Assembly (NCBI RefSeq): GCF_030382115.1
Contig: NZ_JAUDRJ010000003.1
Span: 7,242,122-7,265,157 of the forward strand
Direction of reading: 5' to 3'
Length of the DNA stretch: 23,036 nt
DNA from: Nostoc sp. GT001
GTDB taxonomy: Bacteria; Cyanobacteriota; Cyanobacteriia; Cyanobacteriales; Nostocaceae
The position numbers and the translations under genes were made by a program. Position 1 is the stretch's first letter. Every line of letters starts with the position of its first letter. A model generated the notes under the pieces. The model was not told where the DNA came from, made no database searches, and saw only the letters and a program-made list of their open reading frames with translations. Positions 1,532 through 19,703 of this stretch are shown here, piece by piece.

Positions 1532-1729
1532 ATAGCGATCGCCAGCATGATGTATTCAATTTTTTGATACTTCATACAAGAGAGCCATAACACATTCAAT
1601 TAGACAGTTTAAAAACAACCAAAAAGAGTCAAACCATCATGTTAAAAATATTTTCAACAAAGAAACAAGCAACAAAACAAACGCCTACACTCATTCAACA
1701 GGATTTGGAATTGTTTGAAGAACTAGATG
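1532..1729. repeat. Direct repeat, copy 1 (upstream region plus leader)
   Basis: About 195 bp is nearly identical to 1948-2145, at a constant offset of 416 bp. It covers the HIP1 site, the 5' untranslated region and the codons for the first 29 leader residues of the two peptide genes. Early differences are single bases (GCATGATG against GCATTATG). The repeat decays within the leader, after about codon 29. Confidence 0.9.
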
Positions 1730-1911
1730 ATGCTGATTTATTAGCTATAGTTGGCGGAGATTCAAGTGCAGATGGTGCTGCTGTTGGTAGTCCTGGAGTT
1801 CTTTCGGGAAACCTTGTTCAAGTACCCGTTCATGTACCCGTTAACGTTTGTGTTGATAGTGTCAATGTAATTGCTCTACTTAACCCAGCTTTCGGCAATA
1901 CTTGTAAATAA
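1639..1911 (+). CDS. Double-glycine leader fused to a chaplin domain
   Basis: A 90-residue precursor. Residues 1-40 are polar with no Sec signal peptide and end in an acidic helix-like stretch and LLAIVGG, the pattern of double-glycine leaders cut by C39 peptidase exporters; the expected cut is after G40. Residues 41-90 closely match a Streptomyces chaplin domain (Pfam ChpA-C): GAAVGSPGVLSGN, then QVPVHVPVNVC, then LLNPAFGNTC. Both conserved chaplin cysteines are present (C71, C89) and form a disulfide in known chaplins. Chaplins are secreted surface amyloids that lower surface tension and coat aerial hyphae; activity here is inferred. The CGN of typical chaplins is CVD. The gene heads a group with a second same-leader peptide (2055) and a membrane thioredoxin-type protein (2431). 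Identification rests on remembered chaplin sequences. Confidence 0.85.
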   Translation: MLKIFSTKKQATKQTPTLIQQDLELFEELDDADLLAIVGGDSSADGAAVGSPGVLSGNLVQVPVHVPVNVCVDSVNVIALLNPAFGNTCK

Positions 1912-1976: not shown

Positions 1977-2145
1977 TTTTTGATACTTCATACAAGAGAG
2001 CCATAACACATTCAATTAGACAGTTTAAAAACAACCAAAAAGAGTCAAATCATCATGTTAAAAATATTTTCAACAAAGAAACAAGCAACAAAACAAACGC
2101 CTACACTCATTCAACAGGATTTAGAATTGTTTGAAGAATTGAGCG
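1948..2145. repeat. Direct repeat, copy 2 (upstream region plus leader)
   Basis: This is the partner of 1532-1729 at offset 416. It supplies the second peptide gene with the same 5' untranslated region and the same leader. The high identity points to recent duplication or ongoing gene conversion. Confidence 0.9.
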
Positions 2146-2285
2146 ATGCAGAATTAATGGCAGTAGTGGGAGGTTTTAAGGTCGAAGTAGACGGATCTAT
2201 ATCTGCCAAATGTGTACAGGACACCCTTGCATGTTTGGCTGCGAAGAGCTTGATGGGTTGCACTAAATTAATAGTATGTGAATAA
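2055..2285 (+). CDS. Second double-glycine peptide with a four-cysteine core
   Basis: A 76-residue precursor. The first 29 residues are identical to those of the gene at 1639, then the leader ends ELSDAELMAVVGG, a textbook double-glycine motif with the expected cut after G40. The 36-residue core is unrelated to the chaplin domain and has four cysteines (C53, C60, C69, C75) and no tryptophan. It could be a disulfide-bonded bacteriocin-like or surface peptide. No lanthionine, cyclodehydratase or radical SAM enzyme is present nearby to suggest another modification. The downstream thioredoxin-type membrane protein would suit disulfide formation. A chaplin C-terminal remnant follows at 2298-2381, so this gene seems to have replaced most of a second chaplin gene. 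Confidence 0.75.
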   Translation: MLKIFSTKKQATKQTPTLIQQDLELFEELSDAELMAVVGGFKVEVDGSISAKCVQDTLACLAAKSLMGCTKLIVCE

Positions 2286-2297
2286 TCCGCTTGAAAA

Positions 2298-2381
2298 ATG
2301 TACATACCAGTTTATGGTAAGAGTATCAATATAATTGCTCTACTTAACCCAGCTTTCGGGAATACTTGTGTAGATGCGTAA
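2298..2381 (+). pseudogene. Stranded C-terminal fragment of a chaplin gene
   Basis: From an ATG at 2298 the frame reads MYIPVYGKSINIIALLNPAF then GNTCVDA and stops at 2381. The last part (INIIALLNPAFGNTC) matches the chaplin at 1639 and known chaplins, but the N-terminal half of the domain, the leader and the first cysteine are missing. The DNA matches 1855-1911 with scattered changes. I read it as the tail of a former chaplin gene cut off when the core of the second peptide gene was exchanged. Translation as a 27-residue peptide is possible but unsupported. Confidence 0.75.
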
Positions 2382-2430: not shown

Positions 2431-3354
2431 ATGTATTCACTTTCTGTTATAAGTTCTCTAGTAGTTGGCAGTGTATTTCTGGTGACTGGTGTTGTCAAAG
2501 CACTCGCACCTACAAGATTTCTGATTCACATCAGTCAATTGCAGTTATTACCGCCAAAAGTGAATATAGGTGCAGCGATCGCTTTTACAATTCTAGAGTG
2601 CATCCTGGGAGTAGCTTTGATTTTGCGGCTGTTTCCCCAGTGGCTATTTCTCGGTACAATTGTTTTGCTATTGCTCCTATCGAGTTTAACTTATTGGAGT
2701 ACTTCGACCAAACGCACAGATGATTGTGGTTGCTATAACGGTTTAATTGACATCAGTCCCAAACAAAGTTTACTCCTCAATGCCCTCTACATTACTTTGA
2801 TGGGTTTGGCTTGGTTTTATCCGGTTGCCGATATTTTAACTGTTTCACAACAAGTAACAGCATTGTTGATTTCTTTAACAACAAGTTGTCTATTAACTGC
2901 TGTTTCATATATATATTTCTGGAAGCAAAAAAAACCTATCCTAAACTTAGAGCCGCTTCAGGTTAATCGTCGTTGGCAACCCCAATGGCTAAAGGAATAT
3001 CCCGAAAGCTTAACAACTGGAGAAAAACTGGTTGTGTTTTTAATGCCTGGTTGTCCAACGTGCAAGAACTGGTTGAAAGTGCTAAAAGTGGTTCACCAAA
3101 GAACTGATTTACCTGATGTCGTGGCAGGAGTTCCCCAAACATTAGAACAAGTTCAAGCATTTGTTCAATCTAATAATATTAACTTTCCGGTAGTGGCAAT
3201 GAGTCCTACTGTAGTGGCACGTTTAACCAATGCTTTTCCAACTGCTGTATTGTTAGAGGAAGGTATAATTCGAGAGAAATGGTTGGGAGTAATGCCGCTA
3301 GACTTTGTTAAACGCGTTAAACCAAACTTATCTGTTCCTAGCGGCTCATTTTAA
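2431..3354 (+). CDS. MauE/DoxX-like membrane protein with thioredoxin-like domain
   Basis: A 307-residue protein. Residues about 5-160 hold four or five membrane segments of the MauE/DoxX type, with a DCGC pair (C99, C101) in the loop after the third segment. Residues about 198-300 form a thioredoxin-like domain with a CPTC active site (C208, C211) and a later NFPVV segment that fits the cis-proline loop. This layout, a membrane quinone-type redox module joined to a thioredoxin fold, resembles proteins that make or relay disulfides. It sits 50 bp after the chaplin remnant, on the same strand as the two cysteine-bearing peptide genes, so I infer that it oxidises or matures those peptides outside the membrane. 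Its first codons (ATGTATTCA) are copied upstream of both peptide genes, linking their histories. The start has no clear ribosome binding site. Confidence 0.8.
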   Translation: MYSLSVISSLVVGSVFLVTGVVKALAPTRFLIHISQLQLLPPKVNIGAAIAFTILECILGVALILRLFPQWLFLGTIVLLLLLSSLTYWSTSTKRTDDCGCYNGLIDISPKQSLLLNALYITLMGLAWFYPVADILTVSQQVTALLISLTTSCLLTAVSYIYFWKQKKPILNLEPLQVNRRWQPQWLKEYPESLTTGEKLVVFLMPGCPTCKNWLKVLKVVHQRTDLPDVVAGVPQTLEQVQAFVQSNNINFPVVAMSPTVVARLTNAFPTAVLLEEGIIREKWLGVMPLDFVKRVKPNLSVPSGSF

Positions 3355-3426
3355 CTTGTCCTAACAGGATGTTTGAAAAGTCATAATTGATGTATCAAAT
3401 ATTTTTTACCCCACCCTAACCCTCTC

Positions 3427-3592
3427 CGATGTATTGGCTACGGTGTACACACAAGTTATGGAATCACTACCAGTCCTTGAATTACCCCATCCTAACCCTC
3501 CCCTTATAAAGGGGAGGGAACTAGATTTCTTTTTCCCCCCAATACATCGGGGGAATTAAGGGGGGTAATTTGACTTGTGTGTACACCGTAGC
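3427..3592. repeat. Foldback element with 20-bp perfect ends
   Basis: GCTACGGTGTACACACAAGT (3437-3456) is matched exactly by its reverse complement at 3573-3592. Inside, CCGATGTATT (3427-3436) has its complement at 3541-3550, and GAATTACCCC / GGGGTAATT type arms add further pairing. CCCCACCCTAACCCTC-like blocks beside it are common cyanobacterial repeat filler. No gene is seen. This is a non-coding dispersed repeat or MITE. Confidence 0.65.
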
Positions 3593-3637
3593 TTTGTAAA
3601 GGGGAGTCTATTCGATTTATGCAAGAGGTCTACTTTC

Positions 3638-10352: not shown

Positions 10353-10760
10353 TTAAGAAGAACGCCAATTCTGTATTTGCAAGCCGTTTACTCTTTGAAA
10401 TTCTCGAATATTAGATGTTACAACAATATGATTGTGAGTTAGTGCTGTTGCTGCGATCAATACATCATAAGAACCGATAGGATTACCTGCTGTCTTCAAA
10501 ATACTTCTAATTTGGGCAGCAAGTTCTGCTTCTTCCACACCAAAAGGTAAAATTGTAATCGAACCTAACAATGCTTCAATCAATGATTGAATTTTTAAGG
10601 CACGTTGAGGATTGATTGCTAATCCATACTTAATCTCCATTCCTGTTAAGGAGGAAATAAAAATATCTGTGGGAGTAGTAGACTTTAATAGCTTGAGAGT
10701 ATTTTTTTCTCCCTTGACAAAATCACTAATTACGCAGGTATCGAGTAAATAACCCATCAT
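10353..10760 (-). CDS. vapC: VapC-type PIN-domain toxin (ribonuclease)
   Basis: A 135-residue PIN-domain protein. It starts [14 protein letters not shown] with the first acidic residue D7; E42 (GMEIKYG) and D99 ([12 protein letters not shown]) complete the usual metal-binding acids, and TSNIREF near residue 117 is the typical fourth motif. VapC toxins are Mg2+-dependent RNases that often cut tRNA or rRNA and are held inactive by their partner. The start codon overlaps the stop of the upstream antitoxin by one base (TAATG), showing translational coupling. The stop lies 11 bp before the ATG of the UPF0182 gene. Members of this kind in cyanobacteria often have such short partners. Confidence 0.9.
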
Positions 10761-10975
10761 TAAAACTCGATTTCGTTAGGTGGTAGCAGTTCGTCTCGGT
10801 AGGACTCAAAAATAATACTTTCTACTACACCTTGATGTTGCATAATAGTTTCTGGCCAAGTCATGGGTTTTGTTTCTAAGAAAGTAACAAAGACTTTGCT
10901 TTCAGTAATACCTTGTGGTTTTTCAGCTAGTTCGATTTTGCCGTTTTTATAAATTCCTTCAATGGTTCGTAGCAT
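10760..10975 (-). CDS. VapB-like antitoxin
   Basis: A 71-residue protein with an N-terminal beta-rich segment (MLRTIEGIYKNGKIEL) resembling small antitoxins of the DUF104/AbrB-like sort that precede PIN toxins, and an acidic C-terminus (residues about 55-71, RDELLPPNEIEF) suited to wrapping the toxin. The ribosome binding site is strong: AGGAGGT seven bases before the ATG. Its last base of the stop is the first base of vapC. The assignment as antitoxin depends mainly on position; the exact family is uncertain. Confidence 0.8.
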   Translation of the reverse strand: MLRTIEGIYKNGKIELAEKPQGITESKVFVTFLETKPMTWPETIMQHQGVVESIIFESYRDELLPPNEIEF

Positions 10976-12534: not shown

Positions 12535-12810
12535 CTACAAATTTTTGTAGACTTCACCATCATTCCTCTTGCCAACACGAAAAACATCAATCATCTGGTT
12601 CTCGTGGTCAATAGTGTAAAGAATCCTGTACTCACCTTGATCAACACGATAGCCACCTTCATAACCCTTCAATGCCTTACAGTCCTGGGGTTGAGAATTA
12701 CCTTGAAGCGAAAGAATTTTAGCTACAACTTGCTTATATTGTTTAGCTTGTAAATCATTCAAATCCTTTTCAGCAGTCTTAGCAATCCTCAAACTATAGC
12801 GCTCGCTCAT
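12535..12810 (-). CDS. RelE/ParE-family toxin
   Basis: About 91 residues from the ATG at 12810 (MSERYSLRIAKTAEKDLNDL). The order of elements is that of RelE/ParE toxins: an N-terminal strand, two helices to about residue 45, then a beta sheet with GGYRVDQGEYRILYTID and IDVFRVGKR. RelE relatives cut mRNA on ribosomes and ParE relatives poison gyrase; the arginines and C-terminal basic residues fit the RelE side but do not prove it. The frame stays open back to a GTG at 12825. The ATG has GGAG directly before it. It overlaps the antitoxin gene by 17 bases (32 bases if the GTG is used), a usual layout for such pairs. Confidence 0.9.
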   Translation of the reverse strand: MSERYSLRIAKTAEKDLNDLQAKQYKQVVAKILSLQGNSQPQDCKALKGYEGGYRVDQGEYRILYTIDHENQMIDVFRVGKRNDGEVYKNL

Positions 12811-13054
12811 CTCCACGCTTCGCACTAATTGCGTCTAACGTAGTAAAACCATCATTTTCACTAACTGCACGGCGAAGCGCCTCTGAATCAATAGCGTCTT
12901 CTATAGCTTCAAGCAATTTCAAATCATCAAGACTGATAATCGCTACAGCAGCTTTACCATGACGCTCAATCACAATACGCTCACGCTTATACTCAGCACG
13001 ACTAATAAGCTCTTGAAAATTTGCACGAGCTTCTGTTGCACTTATACGAGTCAT
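12794..13054 (-). CDS. Phd/YefM-family antitoxin
   Basis: An 86-residue protein with the Phd/YefM N-terminal DNA-binding fold (MTRISATEARANFQELI, then VIERHGKAAVAIISLDDLKLLE at about residues 28-49) and an acidic C-terminal part that would bind the toxin. Such proteins repress their own operon, with toxin as co-repressor. A 12-bp inverted repeat lies upstream at 13090-13129 as a candidate operator. Start is the ATG at 13054; the gene overlaps the toxin gene downstream. Confidence 0.9.
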   Translation of the reverse strand: MTRISATEARANFQELISRAEYKRERIVIERHGKAAVAIISLDDLKLLEAIEDAIDSEALRRAVSENDGFTTLDAISAKRGDERAL

Positions 13055-15420: not shown

Positions 15421-16889
15421 CTTGTCATTACCAACATCTTTTAAACTGACTGGGTGATAAAATCAGCAGCCCAACACATATCCTGTAATCGCAACCAGCC
15501 TCGCCATAAGGTCTGCCAACCAGGTAGATCATCGGATTTGCGGCCAAGAAAACCACCCAAACGAGCGATCGCTAAAAAGAATTCACCCAAAGTCAACTCA
15601 CAATTTGTCAACCCAAGACGAGCAACTAAGACTTTTAACATAATTGTAGGTATGTACTCGTGTGCCTTCAGTTGGGAATTGCTGCGACTAAGTTGGCGTA
15701 ACTGTAATAATCTGACTGAAACTATAGCAAAAAAGCCAAGTAACCTTACCAGTGATGAAGCTGACTCCAATTGACGTTTTTCTACAGCACAACCAGTTTT
15801 GAGACACTTATGATACTCTTCAATTAACCAACGTGTAGCATACCAATCTAGTTGCATGAGGGCATCCTCACGAGCATTTACAGCAACAGTGGTAAATAGA
15901 ATCCATTCTAAATCTCCTTCTGGTTCCCAACAACGAATACACCAACCATCTATTGGCTGTTGTTTTCTTTCACAGCCAATTGCTGGGGGTTGAATTGTCA
16001 ATTGAGACCAAGCTACTTGTAAGTTAACTTGACGTTTGGGTTCTCCGTTGCGCCCACGCAAAACAACAGTTTTCTCCGCCATTGGTTGTAAAGAACGAGC
16101 AAATGCCTTGAGATACCCTTTGGTGGCATCAGGTTTAGTAATCACTCGGTTTTGAGTGACTCGTACTAAGCAGTGCCAGTACAAAGCTTTGGCTCGTCGA
16201 AGGTAAGAAAAAATATCACTCCCCCTGTCTCCGACACTTACCCAAATTGACCCAGTTTGTGGTGTTGGTGCAGTGCCGATGGATTCCACCATCTCTGCCC
16301 AAATTTCCCCTTCACCATCTGTTCTCAATAGTTCTGGTAGCGCTTCCACCAACGTGTTGTCATTGTCCTTTTTTTGACTACGCAGCCAAGGTATTTGTCC
16401 TGCCAATCCCAAAATTTGTGGATTCAAAGGTAACGGTACTACTGCTAAACACGTGTGTAGCATCATTCCTCTACCTTTGCCATCTCCAATATGCCCTAAT
16501 CCCTTAACTTGCCGATGATGAGTATAATCTAGTTCTGTTGTGTCTTGGATGAATAAAACAACATTGGATTTTATTTCAGTTGCGCTTTGTTTCGTCTCCG
16601 TGATGTGAGGTTGAATTAATGCCTTATGAGTTACATCGTCTTCCGCAAATAATCGGTACGCAGCACGAATTTCATTCCAGCCTTGCATCATATCTGGTAA
16701 ACTCCCTTGCGGGTTGGCAGCTATGGCTACACCGATAGCGATCGCTCTTTGCGTACGACGAGTATCCCCTAATTCGGCATCTCCCCATTGCTCAACTGCC
16801 CAAGCATTGAGGTCTGTGAAATTTTTCAACTTCATACTCTGACTCTATTACATCCCTACCTCACTTTAAAAGATGTTGGTAATGACAAG
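15421..16889 (-). mobile_element. Complete IS4-family insertion sequence
   Basis: The element is 1469 bp. Its ends, CTTGTCATTACCAACATCTT plus TTAAA (15421-15445) and the reverse complement (16865-16889), are 25-bp perfect inverted repeats. An 11-bp duplication, CTTTTTTAAGG, flanks it. It contains one intact transposase gene on the minus strand. Perfect ends, intact gene and exact duplication indicate a recent and possibly still active insertion. Removing it restores a CCCCCC-TTTTTTAA-GGGGGG palindrome after the DUF4336 gene. Confidence 0.95.
15441..16835 (-). CDS. IS4-family transposase
   Basis: A 464-residue DDE transposase. The N-terminal region (AWAVEQWGDAELGDTRRTQR, then RAAYRLF at 58-63) is the DNA-binding domain seen in Tn5-like members. 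Catalytic aspartates fit D98 (FIQDTTELDY) and D203 (VGDRGSD). The YREK signature of the IS4 family is exact: Y332, R335, E339, K346, with E339 as the catalytic glutamate. It cuts and rejoins the element's own ends. The stop codon lies within the left inverted repeat. Start is the ATG at 16835, 30 bp from the inner edge of the right repeat. Confidence 0.95.
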   Translation of the reverse strand: MKLKNFTDLNAWAVEQWGDAELGDTRRTQRAIAIGVAIAANPQGSLPDMMQGWNEIRAAYRLFAEDDVTHKALIQPHITETKQSATEIKSNVVLFIQDTTELDYTHHRQVKGLGHIGDGKGRGMMLHTCLAVVPLPLNPQILGLAGQIPWLRSQKKDNDNTLVEALPELLRTDGEGEIWAEMVESIGTAPTPQTGSIWVSVGDRGSDIFSYLRRAKALYWHCLVRVTQNRVITKPDATKGYLKAFARSLQPMAEKTVVLRGRNGEPKRQVNLQVAWSQLTIQPPAIGCERKQQPIDGWCIRCWEPEGDLEWILFTTVAVNAREDALMQLDWYATRWLIEEYHKCLKTGCAVEKRQLESASSLVRLLGFFAIVSVRLLQLRQLSRSNSQLKAHEYIPTIMLKVLVARLGLTNCELTLGEFFLAIARLGGFLGRKSDDLPGWQTLWRGWLRLQDMCWAADFITQSV

Positions 16890-17010: not shown

Positions 17011-17985
17011 TCAATTAGGTGAATTAGTTAAAACCTCAGCGATCGCCTGGGAAATCGGTAAACCAGGACAGCGTTCCAGCCAGAAGAACTCGCCAACTGG
17101 GTTAACTTCCAGGAATACATGACGACCATCAGGAGTCAAAATAATATCAAGCGCCCCATAATTTAAACCAAATTCTGCCATGAGTTTGAGCAATTTCTCT
17201 TCGACATCTTCGGGTAAAGTGTATGATTCCCAAGCGTCGAGTAAGGCAATTCCCTGTTTGCGCCAGTCGTAACGTGCCTTATCCAAAGCTTGAGAATCAA
17301 CCGCAGCTGTTAGCACACGTTTCCCTACAACAATTGTCCGCAATTCCAATGCCTTGGGAATCTTTTCTTGAAATGTCATTGGGCAGAAACGTAAACCATC
17401 AAGGTTGTCTAGATCCTCTGAGGAAATTGGATTTGTAAACACAACTTTTTCTCGCCCTTGTTCATCATAAATAGCGAAGGAAGACAGCATTTTTGTAATC
17501 ATTCCCTGCTGACACTCTTGGGCAAATTGCTTTACTGCTATGGGATTATTTGTAGTCAGAGTGCGAGGCGTATCTAAACCGATATCTCTTGCTATTTGTA
17601 ATTGCAATTGCTTATTTTCGGCTCGGCGAATATTTGGCAGAGGATCAAGATGAAACCCACTAATACTAGCAATCATTCCCTCAATGCTGACGCGAGATTC
17701 TTTGAGTGAAGCTTCTCTAAGTTGTTTGTCCATCGAGTTGGGAATTTTTGACCCAATTGCAATACGCCGATACCAAACTGCTGACACTTCATTTAAATCT
17801 AATATCTGGTCATCGACACTCAGAATCACTCGCTTAGTACGACCATAGTAAATATCTAACTGCATTTCTGTGGGAAATCGGTCTGTGTCAAAACGAAATG
17901 CTTTCTTTCCTTGGGCTTCAATTGCCTGAATAACTAGAGGAATACTTTCGTTATCTTGGCTGTGAGTAATGATTAAAGCAGTCAT
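17011..17985 (-). CDS. mvdD: MvdD/MdnC-type ATP-grasp graspetide ligase
   Basis: A 324-residue ATP-grasp enzyme of the microviridin maturase family. It opens with MTALIITHSQDNESIPLVIQ and carries the MvdD-type landmarks as I recall them: AFRFDTDRFPTE, VSAVWYRR, FCPMTFQEKIPKALELR (ATP-grasp fold, about residues 200-216) and a C-terminal FLEVNPVGEFFWLE with the Mg/ATP-binding acids and asparagine. In known systems this ligase acts first, forming two ester (lactone) bonds between Thr/Ser and Asp/Glu side chains of the precursor core. It is the last gene of the microviridin operon here, after the MvdC-type gene (84-bp gap) and the precursor. Start is the ATG at 17985. Confidence 0.93.
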   Translation of the reverse strand: MTALIITHSQDNESIPLVIQAIEAQGKKAFRFDTDRFPTEMQLDIYYGRTKRVILSVDDQILDLNEVSAVWYRRIAIGSKIPNSMDKQLREASLKESRVSIEGMIASISGFHLDPLPNIRRAENKQLQLQIARDIGLDTPRTLTTNNPIAVKQFAQECQQGMITKMLSSFAIYDEQGREKVVFTNPISSEDLDNLDGLRFCPMTFQEKIPKALELRTIVVGKRVLTAAVDSQALDKARYDWRKQGIALLDAWESYTLPEDVEEKLLKLMAEFGLNYGALDIILTPDGRHVFLEVNPVGEFFWLERCPGLPISQAIAEVLTNSPN

Positions 17986-18069
17986 TTACAAATATGGAGA
18001 ATGAAGTACGCTACATATAAATAAATATAGGGGTTATCAGTTGTTTGGGAATTTTTAAGTAAGAGCATT

Positions 18070-19059
18070 TTACTTCGGGTTTGTTGAAAGTAGTGCAGAT
18101 GCGATCGCTAGAGCAATTGGATAGTCCAAATCTCTCTCCAGCATCCCCCACTCTCCTGTAGGATTAATTTCTAAAAAAACATATTCTCCTGATGGCGTTT
18201 TAATCAAATCAAATGCTCCAAAAATCAGTCCAAACTTAGCCATAAAGGCATCCAAACAACGGATTAGTTTATCAGGTAATTGTTCTGGTTGCCAGGTAAG
18301 AATCTTTTTGGTCTCACGTCGCCAATCTTGGGTAGATGCTGCATACTCAGACGCATCTAGCGCCCCGACAAAGAGATTGCCATTCACATACACTGCTCGT
18401 AGTTCTTGCTGTTTAGGGATTTGTTCTTGAAACATAACTGGACAATAGCGGAGTGTTTCAGCATCAAGTAAGTCTTCTTCTTTAACGAGGCTGGTATACA
18501 TGAAAAAAGAGGAGGCTTGCATCCCAGAAGAAAGAGGTCTGAGCAGCTTGACAATCATTTTTCCCTTAACTTGATGGAAAAATTCTCGTGCTTCTTGAGG
18601 ATTGTTGGTGACAAGAGTCCGAGGTATAACAAGACCTACTTCTGATGCAACCCGCAGTTGGCGTAACTTGTTTTCAGCTGCACTTATCTGACGTAAATCA
18701 TCTACCCACTTAGCATCTCTGAGGCTGTCCCAAAAGCCATCTAAGACTGCGAGTGATTCACTAGAACAGGCTGCTTGAAATTGTGGAGCCAATTCTTTAC
18801 CGAGATCGGGTTGCCAAATACGCCGCATCCATACTGCTTGCACTTGCTCGGTGTTGAGGGAGCGATCGCTATATTGCAGTGTATGATTGCTACCAGAGTT
18901 ACTTAAATTAGCCTGGAGTTGCAGTGCGATCGGAAACTTATCAGTATCAAGACGAAATGGCTGTGCGCCTAGTTTTGATACTGCTTCTGCAACTCTATCT
19001 ATTGTAAAGTAATCACCACTATGGGTGATTAATAAAACTACATCACGATCAAGGTGCAT
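18070..19059 (-). CDS. mvdC: MvdC/MdnB-type ATP-grasp graspedtide ligase
   Basis: A 329-residue ATP-grasp enzyme, homologous to but distinct from the gene at 17011. Its start (VVLLITHSGDYFTIDRVAEA), the WMRRIWQPDLGKELAP segment and the C-terminal FLEINPTGEWGMLERDLDYP match the MvdC/MdnB branch. In characterised microviridin pathways this enzyme forms the amide (lactam) bond from the core lysine to an acidic side chain after the partner has made the esters. It lies between the precursor gene (179-bp gap) and the MvdD-type gene on the same strand. Start is the ATG at 19059. All elements of the fold seem intact. Confidence 0.93.
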   Translation of the reverse strand: MHLDRDVVLLITHSGDYFTIDRVAEAVSKLGAQPFRLDTDKFPIALQLQANLSNSGSNHTLQYSDRSLNTEQVQAVWMRRIWQPDLGKELAPQFQAACSSESLAVLDGFWDSLRDAKWVDDLRQISAAENKLRQLRVASEVGLVIPRTLVTNNPQEAREFFHQVKGKMIVKLLRPLSSGMQASSFFMYTSLVKEEDLLDAETLRYCPVMFQEQIPKQQELRAVYVNGNLFVGALDASEYAASTQDWRRETKKILTWQPEQLPDKLIRCLDAFMAKFGLIFGAFDLIKTPSGEYVFLEINPTGEWGMLERDLDYPIALAIASALLSTNPK

Positions 19060-19238
19060 AAAATATTTTTATTAGATCTTGCATTTTCACTATTGTCAAC
19101 TCTTAAGAAAGCAAAATTTTAAACAAGTGAACTTAATTTTAATGGAAAGCCAACTCCTAGATGAAGTTGGCACTAACTGTATTTTTATACTGACAATAGT
19201 TTTAAAACCGCATCTCTGGTGTGATCAAAAGTATGCAG

Positions 19239-19535
19239 CTATGAAGGTGAAGACGGCGAACTGTCATCACCATCTGAAGGAAACTTCTGAGTAACAGCGA
19301 ACTCATCACTATCAGAGGGGTACTTTTTAGTTACTGCGCCATCTTCTTGATCGGATGGAAACTTCAGAGTTGTTACAAGTTCATCCTTATTCTTGTTTGT
19401 GGCATTATTACATTTACCACCGATAATCGCTTTTGAGTCTTCATCAGAAAGGTCTTCAAGGCTTTGCCCTTCCAAGAATCGAGCGAAGAATGGTACTGCT
19501 TGTGAATTCAACTTTTCTGGTTTGTTTTCAGACAC
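19239..19535 (-). CDS. Microviridin-type graspetide precursor with three cores
   Basis: A 98-residue precursor from a GTG at 19535, chosen because AGGAG stands seven bases before it; an ATG at 19583 in frame lacks this and lies beyond the end of a repeat. The leader has PFFARFLEGQ (15-24), the helix recognised by the ligases, and ends LSDEDSKAIIGG (29-40), a double-glycine site. Three cores follow at an exact 13-residue spacing: TLKFPSDQED (56-65), TKKYPSDSDE (69-78) and TQKFPSDGDD (82-91). Each has the Thr, Ser, Lys and acidic residues needed for two esters and one amide. The tail is Ser/Pro-rich. Products of this family often inhibit serine proteases. The two ligases follow downstream; no acetyltransferase or exporter gene is adjacent. 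Confidence 0.92.
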   Translation of the reverse strand: MSENKPEKLNSQAVPFFARFLEGQSLEDLSDEDSKAIIGGKCNNATNKNKDELVTTLKFPSDQEDGAVTKKYPSDSDEFAVTQKFPSDGDDSSPSSPS

Positions 19536-19558
19536 AATCTTTCTCCTATAACATACTG

Positions 19559-19703
19559 ATATCATGTCCGCCAAATTACCCATAATAAAATAACCCCACC
19601 CCCACCCCCACCCCCCTCTCCGCCTGCGGGGAGGGGAGACAAAGCACAGCTTTGGCGGGGTGGGGTTCTTCGGGTTTAATAAGCAATCAAGCGGACATGA
19701 TAT
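19559..19703. mobile_element. Foldback MITE-like element before the microviridin precursor
   Basis: ATATCATGTCCGC (19559-19571) and GCGGACATGATAT (19691-19703) are 13-bp perfect inverted repeats, with looser pairing just inside (TTACCC against GGGTTT). The interior holds CCCCCAC runs and small palindromes (CCGCCTGCGG; CAAAGCACAGCTTTG) and no gene. It begins only 24 bp upstream of the precursor start, so the precursor transcript must start within or beyond it. Confidence 0.6.

Follow-up and report, generated by a model that had tools for sequence, protein, structure and literature searches.

How does a chaplin domain come to stand behind a double-glycine (GG) leader in a cyanobacterium, by what route might such a peptide leave the cell, and what could it do outside? 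Chaplins are small surface-active peptides of the Streptomyces aerial coat, and rodlins are their partner. The question is raised by a 90-residue ORF (ORF1; 1639..1911, plus strand) of Nostoc sp. GT001, which lies in a stretch of 23,036 nucleotides that we refer to as the window. The reading that we favor, with rather better than even confidence, is that of a C39-exported chaplin coat aided by a MauE-thioredoxin-like (MauE-Trx) protein, in which the Sec signal has been replaced by a double-glycine leader.

The precursor and its leader

An earlier note on this DNA had claimed a chaplin domain in ORF1 and had named a missing profile match as its refutation. The Pfam profile search instead gave a significant match of PF03777 (ChpA-C) to residues 40 to 89 (87.8 bits, with the gathering score at 21; E 4.2e-25), and the segments GSPGVLSGN, PVHVPVNVC and LLNPAFGNTC are all in place together with both cysteines, C71 and C89, so that the claim was borne out. 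ORF1 opens with an ATG, and its predicted mature core comprises the last 50 residues (41 to 90; 1759..1908), with a computed monoisotopic mass of 4897.47 Da when one disulphide is counted. The spacing of 18 residues between the cysteines is also found in all seven cyanobacterial chaplin domains for which DNA was available; the residues following the first cysteine are VD in the window chaplin and in one relative (P0002) and GN in most others. Above cut-off, PF03777 matches only ORF1 and a decayed 22-residue tail at 2310-2375 in the host genome and nothing in 14 control genomes, 5 of which give sub-cut-off matches at E up to 10. No solved structure was sequence-similar to the chaplin at E up to 0.1, and a promoter and terminator scan gave a signal no higher than in shuffles.

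Residues 1 to 40 (1639..1758) end in DLLAIVGG. Here, too, the earlier note, which had described a polar double-glycine leader, agrees with what we found: the motif is present in 15 of 15 cyanobacterial GG-chaplins examined, 14 ending in GG and one (P0010) in AG. The host genome contains the chaplin-type leader twice, in ORF1 and in its neighbor, ORF2. As a crude measure of leader hydropathy, applied in place of a trained predictor, we took the best 10-residue Kyte-Doolittle mean within residues 1 to 40. ORF1 scores 1.32 and the 15 GG-chaplins range from -0.20 to 1.32, while five actinobacterial chaplins and rodlins (four from Streptomyces and one from Mangrovactinospora) score 1.88 to 2.67 and two Sec-type Nostoc proteins 3.3 to 3.4; because one GG-rodlin (P0122) scores 1.99, the measure alone cannot separate the two kinds of leader. 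A strongly hydrophobic segment in residues 1 to 40 is found in none of the 15 GG-chaplins and is present in the chaplin of genome G043. Since, as judged by hydropathy only, ORF1 lacks a Sec-type hydrophobic segment, we regard it as a chaplin-domain peptide rather than a canonical chaplin precursor. Its leader falls below the curated models (ComC, PF03047, 17.7 bits against a cut-off of 20.4; no TIGR01847 match), and TIGR01847 (cut-off 15.7) is passed at 16.1 to 16.9 bits by ORF2 and two rodlin leaders. Nostoc contains both leader forms, since the G043 chaplin and the second rodlin of G029 have Sec-type hydrophobic starts. It is the GG form, not the Sec form, that is tied to the cassette described below.

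When about 5.8 billion proteins were searched with the window chaplin, 5010 matches were returned. The best 120 of these include 14 GG-chaplins from Nostoc, Brasilonema and Tolypothrix (P0002-P0013, P0015 and P0016), so that there are at least 14 cyanobacterial relatives; 12 of them are listed as chaplin, P0010 as hypothetical and P0007 without a name. The remaining matches among these best 120 that carry an organism name are all actinobacterial, mostly from Streptomyces, and so are 78 of the 80 loci kept. Among cyanobacteria the domain is rare and patchy: within the host's family, 7 of 217 genomes score above cut-off, as do 4 of 99 relatives (in G061, a fifth, the match is broken and below threshold), and in an even draw of the class it appeared in 1 of 388 genomes, the host's own. 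The chaplins of G117 and G118 are identical to those of Brasilonema L008 and P0015, which places these two genomes in Brasilonema; G122 has the same genus code. The naming is already known, in that NCBI names these cyanobacterial proteins chaplin and rodlin. A literature search over the titles and abstract openings of the papers listed, largely open-access ones, found nothing on chaplins or rodlins in cyanobacteria. The main text of a survey of cyanobacterial double-glycine precursors (PMC3140520) has no occurrence of "chaplin," and that of a report on cycad-root Nostoc MAGs which carry the gene (PMC10999742) has neither "chaplin" nor "rodlin."

Neighboring genes and the route of export

In three Brasilonema-group genomes (G117, G118 and G122), genes for HlyD, the GG-chaplin, MauE-Trx and a C39-peptidase ABC exporter (C39-ABC) follow one another on one strand, with one extra ORF ahead of the ABC gene in G118, so that 3 of 3 Brasilonema-group loci have a C39 exporter beside the GG-chaplin. 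The assignment of HlyD and ABC to the NHLM type by HMM was made on one locus, Brasilonema L008 (on the same contig as G117), where HlyD matches TIGR03794 at 337.7 bits (cut-off 156.2) and the C39-ABC matches TIGR03796 at 1156.2 bits (cut-off 853.3). The Cys, His and Asp that we take to be the functional residues of the C39 peptidase are all present in six of six aligned exporters, three of which come from the host genome. The same-strand runs provide independent evidence for a C39-type export route for the GG-chaplin, which we consider well supported. The earlier note had proposed that an actinobacterial domain was moved onto such a route, and this proposal draws support both from these runs and from the fact that the named non-cyanobacterial matches listed are actinobacterial. 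The rodlin on a like leader, the linked MauE-Trx gene, the varied sites of the cassette and the Sec-type chaplin in another Nostoc genome are additions to what that note had described.

No exporter gene was found in the window, nor in the stretches read of G002/L007 and G029; in these loci the candidate is an exporter encoded elsewhere, and for the window chaplin it would have to act from another part of the genome. The host has an NHLM HlyD and ABC1-ABC2 locus about 0.66 Mb away, whose ABC1 is 62% identical to that of Brasilonema, and the nearest C39-ABC/HlyD pair lies 14 to 16 kb upstream of the chaplin, beside GG precursors of different look. Because similar NHLM exporters are present in genomes without a chaplin (G001 and G006), the exporter is not chaplin specific. 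Two C39-ABC/HlyD clusters of the host genome (L120 6890-13389 and L121), upstream of the window chaplin at distances of about 14 and 50 kb, contain several GG-leader precursors that are larger and of another kind, those of L121 being crystallin-like by eye.

The MauE-Trx gene of the window (2431..3354, plus strand) encodes 307 residues and matches PF07291 (MauE) at 64.1 bits (cut-off 27). Its thioredoxin-like part gives sub-threshold matches only (AhpC-TSA, 21.4 bits against a cut-off of 26) plus a CxxC motif, and the four cysteines of the CGC and CxxC motifs are invariant in seven of seven aligned relatives. Every GG-chaplin locus read carries a MauE-Trx-like gene downstream. Across 99 genomes, the host included, MauE-Trx at 91 to 100% identity is found in 3 of 3 GG-chaplin genomes (G000, G002 and G029) and in 0 of the 96 others (Fisher p 6e-6, a value that ignores kinship); the Sec-chaplin genome G043 is without a MauE-Trx above 90% identity. 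Two distant forms, with neighbors judged by eye, lie after an ABC-exporter gene in G026 (48%; the locus includes only the C-terminal part of that gene) and, in G074 (51%), close to a GG peptide rich in cysteine. MauE presumably serves in disulphide formation, and if this role applies to the window's protein, then MauE-Trx is possibly a disulphide-forming helper of the GG-chaplin. As an aside, the G074 peptide (3083-3340 of L126 983-3340, minus strand) has a GG leader and knottin-like cysteines, is without a Pfam match, and has a MauE gene, a separate thioredoxin-like ORF and a parvulin-like gene, all named by eye, as neighbors.

Two relatives also carry a rodlin. The gene order in G002 and G029 is GG-chaplin, GG-rodlin and MauE-Trx, and against NF041022 (equivalog cut-off 75) their rodlins reach 109.5 and 129.8 bits, respectively. 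The chaplin and rodlin of G002 read identical to those of L007 (Nostoc sp. "Peltigera membranacea cyanobiont" 210A), and the GG-rodlin of G029 ends a few residues early. Within the host's family 2 of 217 genomes have a rodlin; the window's genome, searched at E up to 0.001, has none. The best 120 of 3729 protein matches include seven GG-rodlins (P0131 of 210A, P0122-P0126 and P0137), five of them source-named rodlin and two without a source name. PMC4255298 reported obvious rodlins in streptomycetes only. Of 78 actinobacterial chaplin loci, each up to 16 kb long, 39 have a rodlin no more than 3.6 kb from a chaplin, so that both could have travelled on a single stretch of DNA.

Duplication, sites and ancestry of the cassette

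ORF2 (2055..2285, plus strand) encodes a second GG-leader peptide, of 76 residues, with a bacteriocin-type core of four cysteines. It matches PF04604 (L_biotic_typeA) at 21.9 bits (cut-off 21.7) and the bacteriocin leader model TIGR01847 at 16.5 bits, and its leader is chimaeric, with a chaplin-type front and a rodlin-type end (LSDAELMAVVGG). Behind it lies the decayed tail of a second chaplin copy (2310..2380, plus strand; PF03777, 25.2 bits, and blastn), which has Tyr at the position of the first Cys and ends in VYGKSINIIALLNPAFGNTCVDA followed by a stop. The upstream region of the chaplin gene (1532..1638, plus strand) is duplicated before ORF2: by blastn, 1532-1757 is repeated at 1948-2173 with 93% identity (210/226), near-identical as far as the middle of the leader, and 1846-1974, comprising the end of ORF1 and its downstream flank, is repeated at 2310-2439 with 85% identity (111/130). 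From these repeats, we conclude that the chaplin gene was probably duplicated and that the core of the second copy was then replaced. ORF1, ORF2 and the decayed tail, all in one window, would thus illustrate the swapping of precursor cores behind a constant leader. By eye, repeats of about 40 bases (AAGGCGGAATT..GATCC..GCGAAACACTCAAAC) occur at 1111-1341, just upstream of the chaplin gene, and L007 has another stretch rich in repeats at about 3210-3600.

The closest relative of the ORF2 core is a Nostoc protein named "bacteriocin" (P0243), on a rodlin-type leader (MTNNKIADLETSLFEELSDAELMAVVGG). One rival reading is that the chaplin core itself is now a bacteriocin-like or signalling peptide, a secreted, membrane-active agent on a chaplin scaffold. 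ORF1 does adjoin a four-cysteine bacteriocin-type peptide with a near-identical leader front, leaders and cores are visibly shuffled, and close relatives differ mostly through amino-acid changes. We nonetheless consider such a role improbable; the core is 92 to 100% identical to Streptomyces chaplin over 39 residues, a rodlin accompanies the chaplin in two relatives, and no immunity-like gene adjoining the chaplin was recognized by eye. Two other combinations of leader and core were noticed: P0013 is a chaplin behind a rodlin-type leader front, and P0244 (Nostoc CmiVER01) is a cysteine-free core behind a chaplin leader.

The chaplin cassette occupies different sites in different Nostoc. In G029 it lies between a gene for a 179-residue protein and a small ORF/ATP-grasp pair; these flanks are found free of the cassette in G020 (L129), 0.44 kb apart, and in the window's own genome at 6.318 Mb (L132), 0.24 kb apart, the window's cassette being at 7.24 Mb. 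Three other loci were compared: L131 and L133 match the 179-residue side only, and L136 matches the opposite side, but at a greater distance. These comparisons do not separate gain from loss at a given site. With regard to possible vehicles, a tblastn search of 72,556 plasmid records with the window chaplin gave no match, and viral contigs gave one relative, Sec-type, at 4803-5135 of L118 (a 153-kb IMG/VR contig; 96.6 bits). This contig has a high GC content and by eye is an actinobacterial phage, in which the chaplin adjoins a collagen-like protein. A viral carrier for the cyanobacterial chaplin was therefore rejected, the only viral match being a Sec-type chaplin on a presumed actinobacterial phage, although chaplins may be phage cargo. 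Elsewhere in the window, all on the minus strand, are a microviridin cluster (17011-19583), comprising the ATP-grasp ligases MvdD (17011-17985) and MvdC (18070-19059) and a precursor (19239-19583) in which three core-like segments (LKFPSD, KKYPSD and QKFPSD) are arranged in tandem; a Tn5-like transposase near this cluster (15441-16835; Tnp_DNA_bind, 56.5 bits against a cut-off of 24); and two likely toxin-antitoxin pairs, namely, a PIN-domain protein with a putative small partner (10353-10975) and ParE with Phd/YefM (12535-13054).

The seven cyanobacterial chaplin domains with DNA are 92 to 100% identical over 39 residues to their best Streptomyces or other actinobacterial match (180 domains compared; 4 of 184 dropped), but at identical residues cyanobacterial and actinobacterial chaplins share only 13 to 19% of codons. 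GC3 is 0.18 to 0.26 in the cyanobacterial domains (0.23 in the window chaplin), against an actinobacterial mean of 0.94. That the gene is a contamination or misassembly with Streptomyces DNA is, on these values, scarcely credible: no point in its support was found, the gene lies inside a 7.29-Mb contig, and it has relatives in other genomes. Codon sharing among the seven cyanobacterial domains exceeds independence by z values of 2.5 to 8.5, which favors common descent. Between lineages (Nostoc GG, Brasilonema-group GG and the Sec form), pN/pS of the chaplin domain is 0.08 to 0.34 in 15 of 15 pairs, which are not independent of one another (Fisher p 0.0034 to 3e-8); in six within-group pairs it is 0.37 to 1.09, not different from 1. 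Because the protein is so nearly identical while codon sharing and pN/pS are low, the data fit an old transfer from Streptomyces-like donors, with adjustment to the host and conservation of the protein under purifying selection.

The same data bear on whether the chaplin is a nonfunctional passenger of a mobile cassette. Its patchy distribution (7 of 217 family genomes), the different sites of the cassette, the decayed second copy in the window and the lack of detectable constraint within close pairs would all suit a passenger. Near-complete replacement of the codons around a conserved protein and significant purifying selection between lineages would not, and we regard this explanation as very unlikely. 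For the rodlins, a comparison of the G002 and G029 GG forms gives about 15 changes that alter an amino acid and 2 that are silent (pN/pS 2.7, p 0.37), and the other two pairs give 0.76 and 0.47. The residues that changed between G002 and G029 are states found in two Streptomyces rodlin types; this pattern may reflect rapid change confined to a few permitted residues, or else gene conversion, or diversifying selection.

Trees were built on the 39-column chaplin and 77-column rodlin cores, which are too short to fix the number of transfers. In the rodlin tree (109 rows), the 9 cyanobacterial rodlins need 7 changes, of which the starred branches force only 1, and AU tests on a smaller tree, without six long-branch loci, left a single clade unrejected (p 0.164 for 9 rows and 0.16 for the 8 GG rows). 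In the chaplin tree, the 17 cyanobacterial rows need 15 changes; at least 3 of these are imposed by the starred branches, a result that tells against a single origin or in favor of convergence. One chaplin clade was likewise unrejected by the AU test (p 0.24, with two sets of identical rows left free).

A candidate surface coat and its known counterparts

The chaplin coat that we favor would arise as follows. In a cyanobacterial ancestor, the Sec signal of a chaplin would have been exchanged for a double-glycine leader. A C39-peptidase ABC exporter of the NHLM_micro_ABC1 type would cleave the precursor after Gly-40 and, together with HlyD and a presumed TolC-like channel, carry the core of 50 residues across both membranes in a single step, with the co-carried MauE-Trx-like protein aiding formation of the C71-C89 disulphide. 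Outside, the core would, like other chaplins, assemble at the air-water interface or on cell surfaces, joined in the relatives by a rodlin exported on a sister leader, and filaments, sheath or attachment would gain an amphipathic coat. The earlier note had likewise suggested that the peptide could make filaments or sheaths hydrophobic, or could have a new role after secretion. We infer the cut, the disulphide, the exporter located elsewhere in the host genome, the amyloid assembly and the coat, and with the last the function of the GG-chaplin. A bolder version is that the chaplin-rodlin rodlet-layer kit moved whole into Nostocales, each peptide receiving a new leader and being served by a C39 exporter and a dedicated MauE-Trx oxidase, to yield a Streptomyces-like amyloid coat on terrestrial filaments, the leader swap being a general monoderm-to-diderm route. 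This we put forward tentatively, at somewhat less than an even chance.

As an alternative, the peptide may serve as an adhesin or matrix amyloid in association with a host (lichen fungus, cycad root or leaf) rather than as a water-repellent coat. Several carriers are symbionts, namely, the Peltigera cyanobiont (L007) and the cycad-root Nostoc MAGs ChiVER01, CmiVER01 and DedSLP03 described in PMC10999742, and chaplins also aid surface attachment in Streptomyces, according to PMC4255298. Weighing against it, Brasilonema is reported from leaves and is also placed among taxa of aerophytic habitats in PMC11676812, and the coat and adhesin roles are mutually compatible; as an exclusive account we think it unlikely, if somewhat less so than a bacteriocin-like role.

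If the coat reading is true, a functional amyloid coat crossed from Gram-positive bacteria to cyanobacteria through the exchange of an export tag. In a cell with two membranes, a Sec signal would strand the peptide in the periplasm, and a single step by the C39/HlyD route would bring it to the exterior. It also becomes possible to ask by experiment whether chaplin and rodlin are sufficient for water-repellent filaments outside Streptomyces.

With the short chaplins of Streptomyces (PF03777), the window peptide shares the domain, the two cysteines and their spacing, and the likeness extends to identity at 39 of 39 residues between G118 and S. avidinii L069. It differs in its GG leader in place of the Sec signal, its cyanobacterial host, its linkage to MauE-Trx and, in the Brasilonema-group genomes, its linkage to a C39 exporter. 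Similarly, two Nostoc rodlins exceed the equivalog cut-off and have a chaplin as their neighbor, as do RdlA/RdlB of Streptomyces (NF041022, PF25848), but in Nostoc a GG leader replaces the Sec signal and N-terminal region, and the window is without a rodlin. Like MauE-type and bacteriocin disulphide helpers, MauE-Trx has a MauE domain and a CxxC motif, and its distant forms lie near an exporter or a GG peptide; unlike them, its MauE and thioredoxin-like parts are fused and chaplin linked, in a role that is putative. The cyanobacterial double-glycine precursors (PMC3140520) likewise have C39-ABC and HlyD neighbors, as seen here in the Brasilonema-group genomes. Compared with the consensus E(I/L)X2(I/V)XG(G/A) given in that survey, the leader ends of ORF2 and the rodlins fit within changes of the I/L/M type, while the chaplin leaders carry D in place of E. 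A difference lies in the cargo, which here would be a structural amphipathic peptide known from another phylum.
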